Positions 5,453 through 14,342 of a stretch of 38,293 nucleotides of DNA are shown piece by piece (positions within the stretch are counted from its first letter, which is position 1; every line of letters begins with the position of its first letter). Source of the DNA: Streptomyces hirsutus (lineage in GTDB: Bacteria > Actinomycetota > Actinomycetes > Streptomycetales > Streptomycetaceae). The translations under genes were made by a program, and so were the position numbers. The notes beneath the pieces are model-generated. The model was given only the letters and a program-made list of their open reading frames with translations, was not told where the DNA came from and ran no database searches. Location of the stretch: NCBI RefSeq assembly GCF_001418415.1, contig NZ_LIQT01000212.1, forward strand, positions 1 to 38,293, in the 5' to 3' direction.

Positions 5453-6381
5453 GGGGTTCCCTCCCGGGCGTCCTGATCGGGTTCCCGCGCGGGATCGAGA
5501 TCCTTGAGCCACAACCGCTGCAACATGTGCCAGTCCTCCGGGTGGTCGGCGATCCCCGTGGCGAAGGCGTCGGCCAGCGCCTGTGTCATGACGGACGTCT
5601 TCTCGGCCCGCGTACCTGACTCGGGGACCGGGACCGCTGGATGGACCCGGCCCCGCATCACGGGCGAGTCGTCGTACCAGAGCGTCGCCGGCAGCAGCAG
5701 CGCCCCGGTGTGCTGGGCGAGCAGGGCGGGGCCGGCCGGCATCCGCGCGGTCTCGCCGAAGAACTCGACCTCCACGCCGGAGGCCGACAGGTCGCGGTCG
5801 GCGACCAGGCAGACCAGCCCCCCGTCGCGCAGCCGCCGGGCCAGCGTGCCGAACGCGCTGCCGCCGCTGTGCGGGAGCACCTCCATGCCGAGGCCCTCCC
5901 GGTAGGCGACGAAGCGGTCGTACAGCGTTTCCGGCTTCAGCCGTTCGGCGACGGTGGTGAACGGGATGCCGAGCCCGGTGGTGGCCCAGGCGCCCGCGAG
6001 ATCCCAGTTGGCGAGGTGCGGCAGCGCGAGGACGACGCCCTTGCCGGCCGCCATGCCGTCGGTCACTCGGTGGATGTCCTTGATGTCGATGCCGTTCGCG
6101 ATGCGCTCCGGACTCCAGGCGGGCAGCCGGAAGGACTCCATCCAGTACCGCAGGTACGAACGCATGCCCGCGCGGGACAGTTCGGCGAGCCGCTCGGGGC
6201 TCGCGTCGGGCACCACGCGCGCGTAGTTGCTCTCCAGCCGCTGCACGCCCTGGCCGCGCCGCTTCCAGGCGAGGTCGGCGATGGTCCGGCCGAGCCGCAC
6301 GGCGACGGGTTCGGGGAGCTTCTTGACGGTGGCCCAGCCGGCACCGTACAGAGCGTCGCTCAGGCGGTCCCGCGCGCTCAC
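5449..6381 (-). CDS. PatA-like lysophospholipid/phosphatidylinositol mannoside acyltransferase
   Basis: The 310-aa protein belongs to the HtrB/LpxL-type acyltransferases. The diagnostic H-x4-D motif is in ALPHLANWDLAGAW, and the later blocks GLVCLVADRD, FFGETARMPAGPALLA and WHMLQRLW are also present. In mycobacteria the syntenic gene (PatA) acylates the mannose of PIM; the same role is likely here because the gene lies between the PI synthase and pimA. The GTG start overlaps the upstream stop codon (GTGA), and its own stop overlaps the pimA start. The open frame continues upstream through the overlapping gene but has no family similarity there. Confidence 0.9.
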   Translation of the reverse strand: MSARDRLSDALYGAGWATVKKLPEPVAVRLGRTIADLAWKRRGQGVQRLESNYARVVPDASPERLAELSRAGMRSYLRYWMESFRLPAWSPERIANGIDIKDIHRVTDGMAAGKGVVLALPHLANWDLAGAWATTGLGIPFTTVAERLKPETLYDRFVAYREGLGMEVLPHSGGSAFGTLARRLRDGGLVCLVADRDLSASGVEVEFFGETARMPAGPALLAQHTGALLLPATLWYDDSPVMRGRVHPAVPVPESGTRAEKTSVMTQALADAFATGIADHPEDWHMLQRLWLKDLDPAREPDQDAREGTP

Positions 6382-11664: not shown

Positions 11665-12213
11665 TCACGCCGTGGGCCAGGCCTCCGCGAGCATCTTGCG
11701 GGTGTCGGCCAGCAGTTGCGGCAGTACCCTCGTGTGGCCGATCACGGGAAGGAAATTGGTGTCGCCGCCCCAACGCGGCACGATGTGCTGGTGCAGGTGG
11801 GCAGCGATGCCCGCGCCGGCCGCCGAACCCTGGTTCATTCCGATATTGAAGCCATGAGCGCCGGACGCGGCGCGCAGAGCTGTCATCGCTTGCTTGGTCA
11901 GTTCGGCCAACTCGACCGTTTCCGCGTCGGTGAGATCCGTGTAGTCGGCGACATGTCGATAGGGCACGGTCATCAGGTGGCCACCGTTGTAGGGGTAGAG
12001 GTTGAGCACCACGTACACATGCTCACCCCGCTTGACGATCAGCCCGTCGTCGTCGGACTTGGCCGGGATCGAGCAGAAGGGGCACCCGTCGTCGGCGCCG
12101 GGACCGCTCGGCTTGCTCTCGCCCTGGATGTAGGCCATCCGGTGCGGCGTCCACAGACGCTGGAACGCGTCGGGCGTTCCCACTCCCAGCTGCTGTTCCG
12201 GCTCACTCGTCAT
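11665..12213 (-). CDS. HIT family nucleotide hydrolase/transferase
   Basis: The 182-aa protein has the histidine-triad motif in HLHQHIVPRW (H-x-H-x-H) near residue 145. A CPFC segment (GCPFCSIPA) is typical of the HIT proteins encoded next to thrS in actinobacteria. HIT enzymes hydrolyse or transfer nucleoside phosphates such as Ap4A or aminoacyl-AMP by-products. Its mycobacterial homologue in the same place is related to Ap4A phosphorylases. Starts at 12213 (MTSEPEQQ) and 12225 (MLDLMTSEPEQQ) are both plausible; neither has a strong ribosome binding site. The gene is downstream of thrS on the same strand, but a terminator-like hairpin lies between them. Confidence 0.9.
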   Translation of the reverse strand: MTSEPEQQLGVGTPDAFQRLWTPHRMAYIQGESKPSGPGADDGCPFCSIPAKSDDDGLIVKRGEHVYVVLNLYPYNGGHLMTVPYRHVADYTDLTDAETVELAELTKQAMTALRAASGAHGFNIGMNQGSAAGAGIAAHLHQHIVPRWGGDTNFLPVIGHTRVLPQLLADTRKMLAEAWPTA

Positions 12214-12252
12214 GAGGTCCAGCATATGGCTTCGCCACAGGGGTAGGACAAA

Positions 12253-12278
12253 GGCCCCCGGGCTCGCTCCCGGGGGCC
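12253..12278 (-). terminator. Rho-independent-like terminator between thrS and HIT
   Basis: On the minus strand a perfect 10-bp stem (GGCCCCCGGG and its complement) with a 6-base loop is followed by TTTGTCC. This is one of the few hairpins here with a T-run, so it is likely a true terminator or attenuator at the end of the thrS transcript, upstream of the HIT gene. Confidence 0.7.
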
Positions 12279-12364
12279 GATCCCCGCGTCGGCGGGGAGT
12301 AACAGCACCTTCATGTGTCCGACAACCGGTATGAACGGACCATCCCCGCGGCGGCGGGGACCGC
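12275..12364 (-). repeat. Two CRISPR-like (type I-E style) palindromic repeats with one spacer-sized gap
   Basis: Two 28-base units (minus strand 12364-12337 and 12302-12275) agree at 21 of 28 positions. They share the core TCCCCGCCG-N-CGCGGGGAT and end in CC. The copies start 62 bases apart, leaving a 34-base gap (12303-12336) that is about 53% GC in a roughly 72% GC genome. The form (CCCCGC/GCGGGG stem, GGGGATGGTCC end) is like the type I-E repeats I know from Streptomyces. There are no cas genes nearby and only two units, so it may be a remnant or solo mini-array, or simply two hairpins after thrS. Confidence 0.4.
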
Positions 12365-12365
12365 G

Positions 12366-14342
12366 TCACACCTGAACGCGACGCTCCACCACATCAACGA
12401 GCTTGGCGATGGCCTCGTCACGCGGAATGCCGTTCTCCTGCGAACCGTCGCGGTAGCGGAAGGAGACCGTGCCCGCGTTCATGTCGTCGTCGCCGACGAT
12501 GACCATGAACGGGACCTTGAGCTTCTGCTGCGTGCGGATCTTCTTCTGCATGCGGTCCGAGGAGGAGTCCACCTCGACGCGCAGGCCCTTGCGCTTCGCG
12601 TCGGCGGCGAACTTCTCCAGGTACTCCACGTGGGCGTCGCCGACCGGGATGCCCACCGCCTGCACCGGTGCCAGCCACGCCGGGAAGGCACCCGCGTAGT
12701 GCTCCAGCATCACCGCGAAGAACCGCTCGATCGATCCGAACAGCGCGCGGTGGATCATGACCGGGCGGGTCTTGGAGCCGTCCGCGGCCGTGTACTCCAG
12801 GTCGAAGCGCTCCGGCAGGTTGAAGTCGAGCTGGATCGTCGACATCTGCCAGGTGCGGCCGATGGCGTCCTTGGTCTGCACCGAGATCTTCGGGCCGTAG
12901 AAGGCGGCGCCGCCCGGGTCCGGGACCAGCGGCAGGCCCTGCTTCTCGGCGACCTGGCGCAGTGTCTCGGTGGCCTCTTCCCAGGCCTCGTCGGTGCCGA
13001 CGAACTTTTCCGGATCCTTGGTGGACAGCTCCAGGTAGAAGTCGGTCAGGCCGTAGTCGCGCAGCAGGCCGAGCACGAAGGTGAGCGTCTTGTCGAGCTC
13101 GTCCGCCATCTGCTCGCGGGTGCAGTAGATGTGCGCGTCGTCCTGGGTGAAGCCGCGGGCGCGGGTCAGACCGTGCACGACACCCGACTTCTCGTAGCGG
13201 TAGACCGTGCCGAACTCGAAGAGCCTCAAGGGCAGTTCACGGTACGACCGGCCGCGCGCGTCGAAGATCAGGTTGTGCATCGGGCAGTTCATGGGCTTGA
13301 GGTAGTAGTCCACGCCCTCGTCGAGCTGCATGGGCGGGTACATGCCGTCGGCGTACCAGTCCAGGTGGCCCGAGGTCTCGAAGAGCTTCCCCTTCGTCGC
13401 GTGCGGGGTGTAGACGAACTCGTAGCCCTCCTCCTCGTGGCGGCGCCGCGAGTAGTCCTCCATGACCCGGCGGATGATGCCGCCCTTGGGGTGGAAGACG
13501 GCGAGGCCGGAGCCGATCTGCTCCGGGATGGAGAACAGGTCCAGCTCGGAGCCGAGCTTGCGGTGGTCGCGCTTCTCGGCTTCGGCGAGGAACTCCAGGT
13601 GCGCCTTCAGCTCGTCCTTGGACGGCCAGGCGGTGCCGTAGATGCGCTGGAGCATCGGGTTCTTCTCGCTGCCGCGCCAGTAGGCGGCGGCGTTGCGCAT
13701 CAGCTTGAACGCCGGGATGTTCCGGGTGGTCGGCAGGTGGGGACCGCGACAGAGGTCCTTCCAGCACAGGTCGCCGGTCTTGGCGTCGAGGTTGTCGTAG
13801 ATCGTCAGCTCGCCGGCGCCGACCTCGACGTCCGCGCCGTCGTCGTGCGACGCGGAGCCCTTGAGGCCGATCAGCTCGAGCTTGTACGGCTCGTCGGCCA
13901 GTTCCTCGCGGGCCTCGTCGTCCGTGACCACGCGGCGGGCGAAGCGCTGCCCGCGCTTCTGGATCTCCTGCATGCGCTTCTCGATGGCCTTGAGGTCATC
14001 GGGGTGGAAGGGCTTGTCGACGTCGAAGTCGTAGTAGAAGCCGTCCTTGACCGGCGGGCCGATGCCCAGCTTGGCCTCGGGGAACAGCTCCTGCACGGCC
14101 TGGGCCATGACGTGCGCGGTGGAGTGGCGCAGGATGGCGAGGCCGTCCGGGGACGAGATCTCGACGGCTTCGACGGTGTCGCCGTCGCTGACCTCATGGG
14201 CGAGGTCCTTGAGCTCACCGGCCACCCGCGCGGCGATGACCGAGCGTTCGCCGGCGAAGAGCTCGGCGGCCGTGGTGCCCGTCGTCACCACGCGTTCTTC
14301 CCGCTCGGAATCGCGTTGGATGATCACACGGACGTCTGACAC
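12366..14342 (-). CDS. thrS: Threonyl-tRNA synthetase
   Basis: The 658-aa class II synthetase charges tRNA-Thr. The N-terminal TGS domain (1-62, [11 protein letters not shown]...) is followed by the editing domain with [10 protein letters not shown] and the catalytic core. The core has the zinc-site cysteine in [10 protein letters not shown], motif 2 in [16 protein letters not shown] and motif 3 near [20 protein letters not shown]. The C-terminal anticodon-binding domain ends [16 protein letters not shown]. The GTG at 14342 has CAGGAGA 7 bases upstream; the frame remains open above it without similarity. No T-box-like leader is evident in the 240 bases upstream. All editing and catalytic blocks are present. 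Confidence 0.97.

Follow-up and report, generated by a model that had tools for sequence, protein, structure and literature searches.

One-spacer type I-E mini-arrays beside Streptomyces core genes carry guides that resemble the neighboring gene of other strains

Introduction

CRISPR arrays of type I-E are known from Streptomyces and E. coli. The I-E system of S. avermitilis is active, and its conserved AAG PAM has been measured (PMC4762764). In Cascade every sixth position is flipped out and unpaired (PMC5904413; preprint PMC12871591). The mini-array described here shares with a canonical I-E array its stem, handle, period of about 61 nt, AAG-type PAM and every-sixth-base rule. In contrast to a canonical array, it has no room for a leader, no adjacent cas gene and one spacer, it lies at a fixed site after a core gene, and its guide matches that neighboring core gene.

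Single spacers between degenerate repeats outside arrays are also found in CreTA/CreA, Cas-regulating RNAs and scaRNA. Of the two repeats of haloarchaeal CreTA, the first has diverged more (PMC9458426), whereas in our mini-array the first repeat (R1) keeps its handle and the second (R2) is degenerate. Furthermore, unlike CreTA, no toxin was noticed by the mini-array, and the match to the strain's own gene is reduced rather than kept.

Free-standing homing endonucleases such as T4 SegF and SegG are known for intronless homing and marker exclusion. Like them, the mini-array is a small element by its target gene, aimed at the alleles of relatives, with a diverged allele of its own. It differs in that an RNA guide would borrow the host's Cascade-Cas3, in residing on a bacterial chromosome, and in that spread is conjectural here. 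No endonuclease is encoded in the gap that holds the array, which at about 150 bp is too short; Cascade-Cas3 is encoded elsewhere in the genome. Synthetic Cleave-and-Rescue and toxin-antidote CRISPR drives likewise link a guide against a wild-type gene to a resistant functional copy, whereas the mini-array is natural, has no Cas gene in the cassette and has the resident gene as its resistant copy. Virus-borne mini-CRISPR arrays in interviral conflict are another case in which a short array would borrow host Cas against relatives (PMC6858448); the Streptomyces arrays differ in being chromosomal and at fixed core-gene sites. In the open-access PMC literature, we found no description of guides by a neighboring core gene with an escaped own allele.

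Results and Discussion

A type I-E mini-array lies between thrS and a HIT-domain gene

The window, that is, the whole 38,293-nt stretch of DNA that was analyzed, is contig C127 of the 8.5-Mb assembly G000, which its relatives place in the genus Streptomyces. It contains two minus-strand repeat units, at 12337-12364 and 12275-12303, whose starts are 62 nt apart, as a sequence-only reading had reported. The units form a 24-nt direct repeat that is 88% identical. The exact core TCCCCGCCGNCGCGGGGAT has two occurrences in the 8.5-Mb genome, both in this mini-array. When up to 2 mismatches are allowed, it gives 42 forward and 37 reverse matches genome-wide, compared to 0 and 2 with the reversed pattern.

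The first unit in transcription order, R1 (12337..12364, minus strand), has the stem CCCCGC-CGCC-GCGGGG and an intact 3' handle, ATGGTCC, the predicted source of the crRNA 5' handle. It ends GCGGGGATGGTCC, and the same 13 bases end most of the long-array repeats on contigs C334 and C568. In R2 (12275..12303, minus strand) the stem CCCCGC-CGAC-GCGGGG is intact and the 3' end is degenerate; a crRNA 3' hairpin requires the stem alone. Between the units lies the spacer, or guide (12304..12336, minus strand), which is 33 nt long including the PAM-derived first base and matches the HIT gene of other Streptomyces. The stem, the 3' handle and the period of about 61 nt are those of type I-E repeats. 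Because the repeats match the genome's own I-E arrays (C334, C568), as their earlier description as I-E-like had anticipated, the units are a real type I-E mini-array. That much of the earlier interpretation stood. The units are better described in this way than as "decayed", as a "mobile repeat" or as a "terminator pair".

The mini-array is on the strand of the upstream gene at 12366..14342 (minus), which by similarity we take to be thrS (threonyl-tRNA synthetase). It lies between the thrS stop codon and the downstream HIT-domain gene (11665..12213, minus; PF01230, E = 1.5e-12), which is the guide's target. The array starts few bases past the stop codon, leaving no room for a leader, and has two repeats and one spacer only. 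A separate terminator-like hairpin, GGCCCCCGGG-AGCGAG-CCCGGGGGCC followed by TTT, overlaps the end of R2 (12250..12278, minus; sequence and fold). The pair of units had also been considered as terminators, and was rejected as such with this separate hairpin following R2. No cas gene was noticed beside the mini-array within the window, in line with the earlier observation. Two type I-E loci are present elsewhere in the genome: contig C612 encodes Cas3, Cas8e, Cas7e, Cas5e, Cas6e, Cas1e and Cas2e, and contig C334 encodes Cas3, Cas8e, Cas7e, Cas5e and Cas6e, up to the contig end.

Similar arrays occupy fixed sites in other genomes

A strict pattern detected a thrS-site array in 10 of 392 Streptomyces genomes (12 matches, of which those in G181 and G299 were located elsewhere and dropped). 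Adding G310 and G333 brings the carriers to at least 12. A scan of a collection of 84,980 species matched 45 stretches, and 34 thrS-site arrays remained after 11 stretches without thrS were dropped. These arrays were found in Streptomyces, in Kitasatospora xanthocidica and in a strain labelled Saccharothrix sp. ST-888. Of 38 thrS-site arrays, 37 were parsed, with that of G310 (L204) left out. In some other species, the thrS-HIT gap shows the same layout with different spacers, rather than one conserved sequence lacking spacer variation, which the sequence-only reading had named as an outcome that would tell against an array.

The handle G[AG]TGNNCC, which was not in the search pattern, follows the R1 stem in 33/37 thrS-site arrays and the R2 stem in 3/37. 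An R1 handle and an R2 hairpin are what is required to make one crRNA. Stem conservation holds by construction, because the search patterns fixed most of the stem. Loops vary, and the spacing is 61 or 62 in 35/37 arrays, where the pattern would have accepted 50-64. In 37/37 arrays, 6-8 nt separate the thrS stop codon from the CCCG stem (0-14 accepted). Among 29 relatives whose thrS gap was read by eye, 27 are without a two-stem array (one gap holds a run of N). A single repeat-like stem just after the thrS stop was seen by eye in 4 of these 27 non-carriers (L025, L030, L031, L036), and such single stems are possibly remnants of lost arrays.

Solo arrays also occur beside other genes. In the genome of the window, a search for the stem pair outside long arrays returned the window pair, one pair each on C222 and C429, and one apparent chance match (C235), compared to 0 for the reversed control. 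The C222 and C429 mini-arrays each have two repeats with a spacing of 61. The second mini-array (C429:8494-8573; L009:2995-3074) is between glnD and ffh, and its spacer matches ffh of other strains at up to 28/33 and the strain's own ffh at 25/33, with PAM TCC. The third (C222:4084-4168; L010) is by a convergent uvrA. Its spacer matches the 3' end of uvrA of other strains at up to 27/33, mostly with an AAG PAM, and the own copy at 19/33. With a wider pattern, 100/392 genomes matched, many of the matches being ordinary-array ends by eye. From the matches listed, 40 regions were picked by eye and 6 ordinary arrays were dropped. Within the regions so covered, solo arrays were found at least beside ffh, cobN plus a chelatase-type gene, uvrA, and DUF3817, RecN-like, DAHP synthase and UbiA-type genes, as assigned by Pfam family. 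Two further docking sites that recur, judged from similar 3' flanks, are at the DUF3817 gene (L237, L245, L259, L264) and in the cobN region (L241, L244, L248, L253, L256), with a different spacer in each genome.

Guides match the neighboring core gene of other genomes

Of the 37 thrS-site spacers, 36 match thrS (32) or HIT (4) of other genomes, with a best foreign match of 25-33 of 33. The odd one out, from Streptomyces sp. MUM 178J (L160), is without a neighbor target (21/33). The matches fall at 12 target sites if those 3 nt apart are merged (14 otherwise), all in coding sequence, and 5 spacers match the opposite strand. Most genomes have AAG or AAC as the triplet preceding the match at most sites; at target site -505, AAG is present in 25/58. 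For the wider set of solo arrays, 21/37 spacers beat shuffles (p <= 0.02) in their own neighborhood. For the thrS-site guides, which were compared to the neighboring genes, the matches found lie in coding sequence of the adjoining core gene, and other genomes mostly give the better match.

The window spacer matches HIT of other genomes at up to 29/33, with PAM AAC in 44/56, and its mismatches to the HIT consensus are at positions 1, 7, 13, 19, 24 and 25. Low G+C had earlier hinted at a foreign spacer. This hint was not borne out: among the matches listed, the best plasmid match has E = 0.3 and phage matches stand at E = 5, and phage or plasmid origin was rejected on matches this weak. By its letters, the spacer resembles a core gene and not a mobile element. 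A second thrS paralogue was also considered as the target and rejected, as spacers fit the orthologue or HIT instead. Such paralogues, at 36-44% identity, are present in 4 of 12 genomes searched (G014, G116, G070, G181), the others giving weak matches only.

Mismatches concentrate at every sixth base

When numbering starts at the PAM-derived first base, spacer positions 7, 13, 19, 25 and 31 correspond to crRNA positions 6, 12, 18, 24 and 30, the ones flipped out in Cascade. The 36 thrS-site guides were merged where at least 28/33 alike, giving 25 distinct guides. When these were compared to the cross-genome consensus, mismatches were present at 65/125 of the flipped positions and at 90/650 of the other positions 2-32 (Fisher P = 5e-19), while non-flipped positions of the same codon phase had 35/125 (P = 1.7e-4). 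These tests take the guides as independent and ignore phylogeny. Against the nearest genome, the same guides had 53/125 mismatches at unread positions, 46/650 at other positions and 18/125 at the same codon phase.

A second set of guides gave the same pattern. It consists of the 19 guides, among 37 solo arrays at other loci, that have a foreign match of at least 25 in the DNA compared; the 37 include L098, added by hand, and L239, which proved to be a thrS-site array and lies outside the 19. Relative to the best foreign region, mismatches were present at 52/95 unread positions, at 42/494 others (P = 4e-23) and at 18/95 of the same codon phase (P = 5e-7), again with phylogeny ignored. Thus, the guides have remained complementary to the neighbor gene of other strains where Cascade reads the base, and have drifted where it does not.

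The carrier's own copy matches less well

The own target was readable in 32/36 carriers. We defined a copy as targetable if it has AAG or AAC, at most 1 seed mismatch and at most 4 mismatches at read positions, with cut-offs set after seeing the data. By this definition the own target is targetable in 1/32 carriers (L194), compared to a mean of 48% of other genomes. Counting a missing PAM as five mismatches, more than half of other genomes match better than the own copy in 26/32 carriers; for five more carriers (L187, L197, L176, L059, L198) half or fewer match better. The own PAM is not AAG or AAC in 11/32. Escape routes include PAM changes (AAG to CGC, CGT or CGG; AAC to AAT), seed changes and mid-spacer changes. 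Seven own targets keep the PAM and a perfect seed, and Cascade might still bind there.

Divergence from other genomes is also concentrated at the own target. The own target is readable in 28 carriers with thrS targets, 25 of which had the sequence for this comparison. In these 25, divergence at the target is 2.31x the gene mean, compared to 1.12x for the same stretch in other genomes (P = 6e-7, uncorrected for phylogeny). In S. caatingaensis (L164) a run of changes crosses the own target. The window strain's own HIT copy (target and PAM at 11723..11758, minus strand) has AAT instead of AAC and 10 spacer mismatches, 5 of them at Cascade-read positions. AAT alone is not unique to this strain, since 9/56 other genomes have it. 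AT-rich third codon positions in this target are not unusual (3/13 codons, compared to 27/171 in the gene); therefore, we do not claim rare-codon recoding for the window.

For arrays at the other loci, the foreign copy matched better in 16/19, the own copy in 1 and 2 were ties, a count that is biased because the best of many foreign regions is set against one own region. For 12 guides, fixed panels of 27 ffh or 29 uvrA copies were used. The own match was below the panel median for 6 of the 12 (L009, L117, L246, L262, L265, L010), and the other 6 reached or exceeded it. Among these other 6, L098 equaled the median, L240 and L260 are above the median and keep the AA PAM, and the own PAM of L247, L257 and L261, like that of L009, is TCC or CGT, whereas AA is found in 15-27 of the 27 panel copies. 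The carrier's own allele looks mostly spared.

Guides differ at one site, and many carriers lack Cas6e

Two carriers, L161 and L188, have thrS genes that differ at 49/1968 bases (97.5% identical), yet their guides are unrelated (11/33). The guides are aimed 90 bases apart and each strain carries changes at both sites; differences within this pair are not concentrated at the targets (P = 0.11). Close pairs that share one target site count the same stretch twice, and their P values were not used. Copies were targetable in 297/623 tests of non-carriers and 282/748 of other carriers (per guide P = 0.01, guides taken as independent); the non-carrier panel has 26 loci, including a few with single stems that are maybe former carriers. 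At the level of sequence, these data suggest successive guides at one site. Where guides are related, the identity profiles of the surrounding DNA gave no distinction between vertical and horizontal inheritance.

Cas6e (PF08798) was found in 9/11 thrS carriers and 18/50 genomes without a pattern match (Fisher P = 0.008); it was not found in thrS carriers G070 and G175. Among carriers chosen for other sites, Cas6e was present in 5/19 (in two pieces in G223) and absent from 14/19. Reassigning G333 as a thrS carrier gives 9/12 (P = 0.02) and 5/18 (P = 0.6). Since many carriers lack Cas6e, numerous arrays may be silent today. A carrier without Cas may have an inactive copy or rely on the Cas of recipients. 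Such carriers count against a purely host-beneficial role, and also against universal activity.

A proposed pairing of guide and spared allele

We think it probable, with real reservations, that these arrays and their neighboring alleles are linked cassettes of guide and immune allele that turn resident I-E Cascade-Cas3 on the alleles of non-carriers, as RNA-guided allele exclusion or homing. Transcription of thrS would run into the array, and Cas6e would cut at the two hairpins to give one crRNA with an 8-nt R1 handle, the spacer and the R2 3' hairpin. After loading into Cascade, this crRNA would recognize the neighboring core gene of many other Streptomyces (HIT in the window strain, thrS in most thrS-site relatives) at an AAG or AAC PAM, tolerating every-sixth-base changes. 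The carrier's own neighbor allele would be spared because its PAM, its seed or its mid-spacer match has been lost. In an I-E-positive cell that receives chromosomal DNA of both kinds, the allele of the non-carrier would be attacked. Such an attack would exclude foreign alleles, and repair from the carrier allele would spread that allele together with its linked guide, biasing inheritance and possibly turning guides over by selection. The cassette would then be an RNA-guided analog of the free-standing homing endonucleases of phages, or a cleave-and-rescue element of natural origin. As in homing and marker exclusion, the array is linked to its target, the own allele appears resistant and relatives appear sensitive, with exceptions such as L194, L240 and L260. 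The sequence signature expected of Cleave-and-Rescue is likewise present, and the guide may cut the wild-type gene; other-site targets include DUF3817, cobN and recN-like genes, which are not necessarily essential.

The same matching and self-escape data could come from a mating barrier for host benefit, in which ordinary immunity acts on chromosomal DNA conjugated from other species and the own gene diverged solely as an escape from autoimmunity. In haloarchaea, mating reportedly leaves spacers that target the chromosomal genes of another species, and the guides do fit about half of non-carrier genomes (297/623 tests). However, a barrier leaves unexplained why 36/37 guides are aimed at the directly adjoining gene from a fixed site, and why Cas6e is so often absent from other-site carriers. 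In a selfish pair, guide and spared allele should be tightly linked, whereas a barrier that serves the host would not need such linkage, and we regard the barrier as unlikely. Less likely still is self-regulation, with the crRNA weakly binding and repressing the strain's own thrS, HIT or ffh in the manner of CreA, Cas-regulating RNAs or scaRNA. CreA has the same layout, with a single spacer flanked by degenerate ectopic repeats (PMC9458426). In E. coli, AAG plus about 5 seed bases can suffice for Cascade binding (PMC5904413), and the seven own targets with PAM and seed would offer this. Self-regulation is disfavored because the own match is reduced: the own PAM is neither AAG nor AAC in 11/32 carriers, others match better in 26/32, and divergence is concentrated at the own target. 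The targets are also spread over 12 places in coding sequence and on both strands.

Degenerate repeats, the many carriers without Cas6e and the single stems in 4/27 non-carrier gaps (by eye) would suit decaying relics of self-derived DNA that Cas1-Cas2 integrated accidentally outside arrays. We find this very improbable, as decaying arrays would not restrict their mismatches to each sixth base in two separate guide sets, nor keep the R1 handle while losing that of R2, nor preserve a 61-62 nt spacing. Antiviral or antiplasmid memory would fit the type I-E anatomy; with weak phage and plasmid matches for the window spacer and a neighboring core gene matched by 36/37 spacers, its chances are slim indeed. 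G+C-rich hairpins after a stop codon would fit two paired terminators or a family of palindromic repeats. This reading is contradicted by the separate terminator-like hairpin after R2, the fixed 61-62 spacing, the handle kept in R1 only and the guide-target matching, and we give it almost no weight.

If guides and spared alleles do form selfish pairs, bacteria have evolved CRISPR guides that act on alleles of their own core genes and spare the carrier, on the same principle as synthetic cleave-and-rescue drives. CRISPR repeats would then serve a purpose other than antiviral memory or self-regulation, which would explain odd one-spacer arrays in Streptomyces. It would also point to an influence of CRISPR on gene flow and on sequence choice in housekeeping genes, and would make Cascade's every-sixth-base rule visible in evolutionary data. 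A broader proposal, which we put forward tentatively and believe somewhat less readily than its opposite, is that Streptomyces chromosomes host a network of gene-drive-like RNA-guided elements. These would sit at fixed docking sites by core genes, use whatever I-E system is present, spread by repair, have their guides replaced upon resistance and leave escape marks in housekeeping genes.

Other I-E-like repeats in the genome

A lone I-E-like repeat is present at C612:39130-39148 (L013:3131-3149), about 500 bp upstream of cas8e. It was checked as a possible Cas-regulating RNA, and no 9-nt seed match was seen near cas8e or its promoter. A probable fourth mini-array is located on C267 at about 6220-6300 (L019), with a degenerate first repeat. 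Its spacer resembles, by eye, the solo spacer that lies beside a UbiA-type gene in G301.
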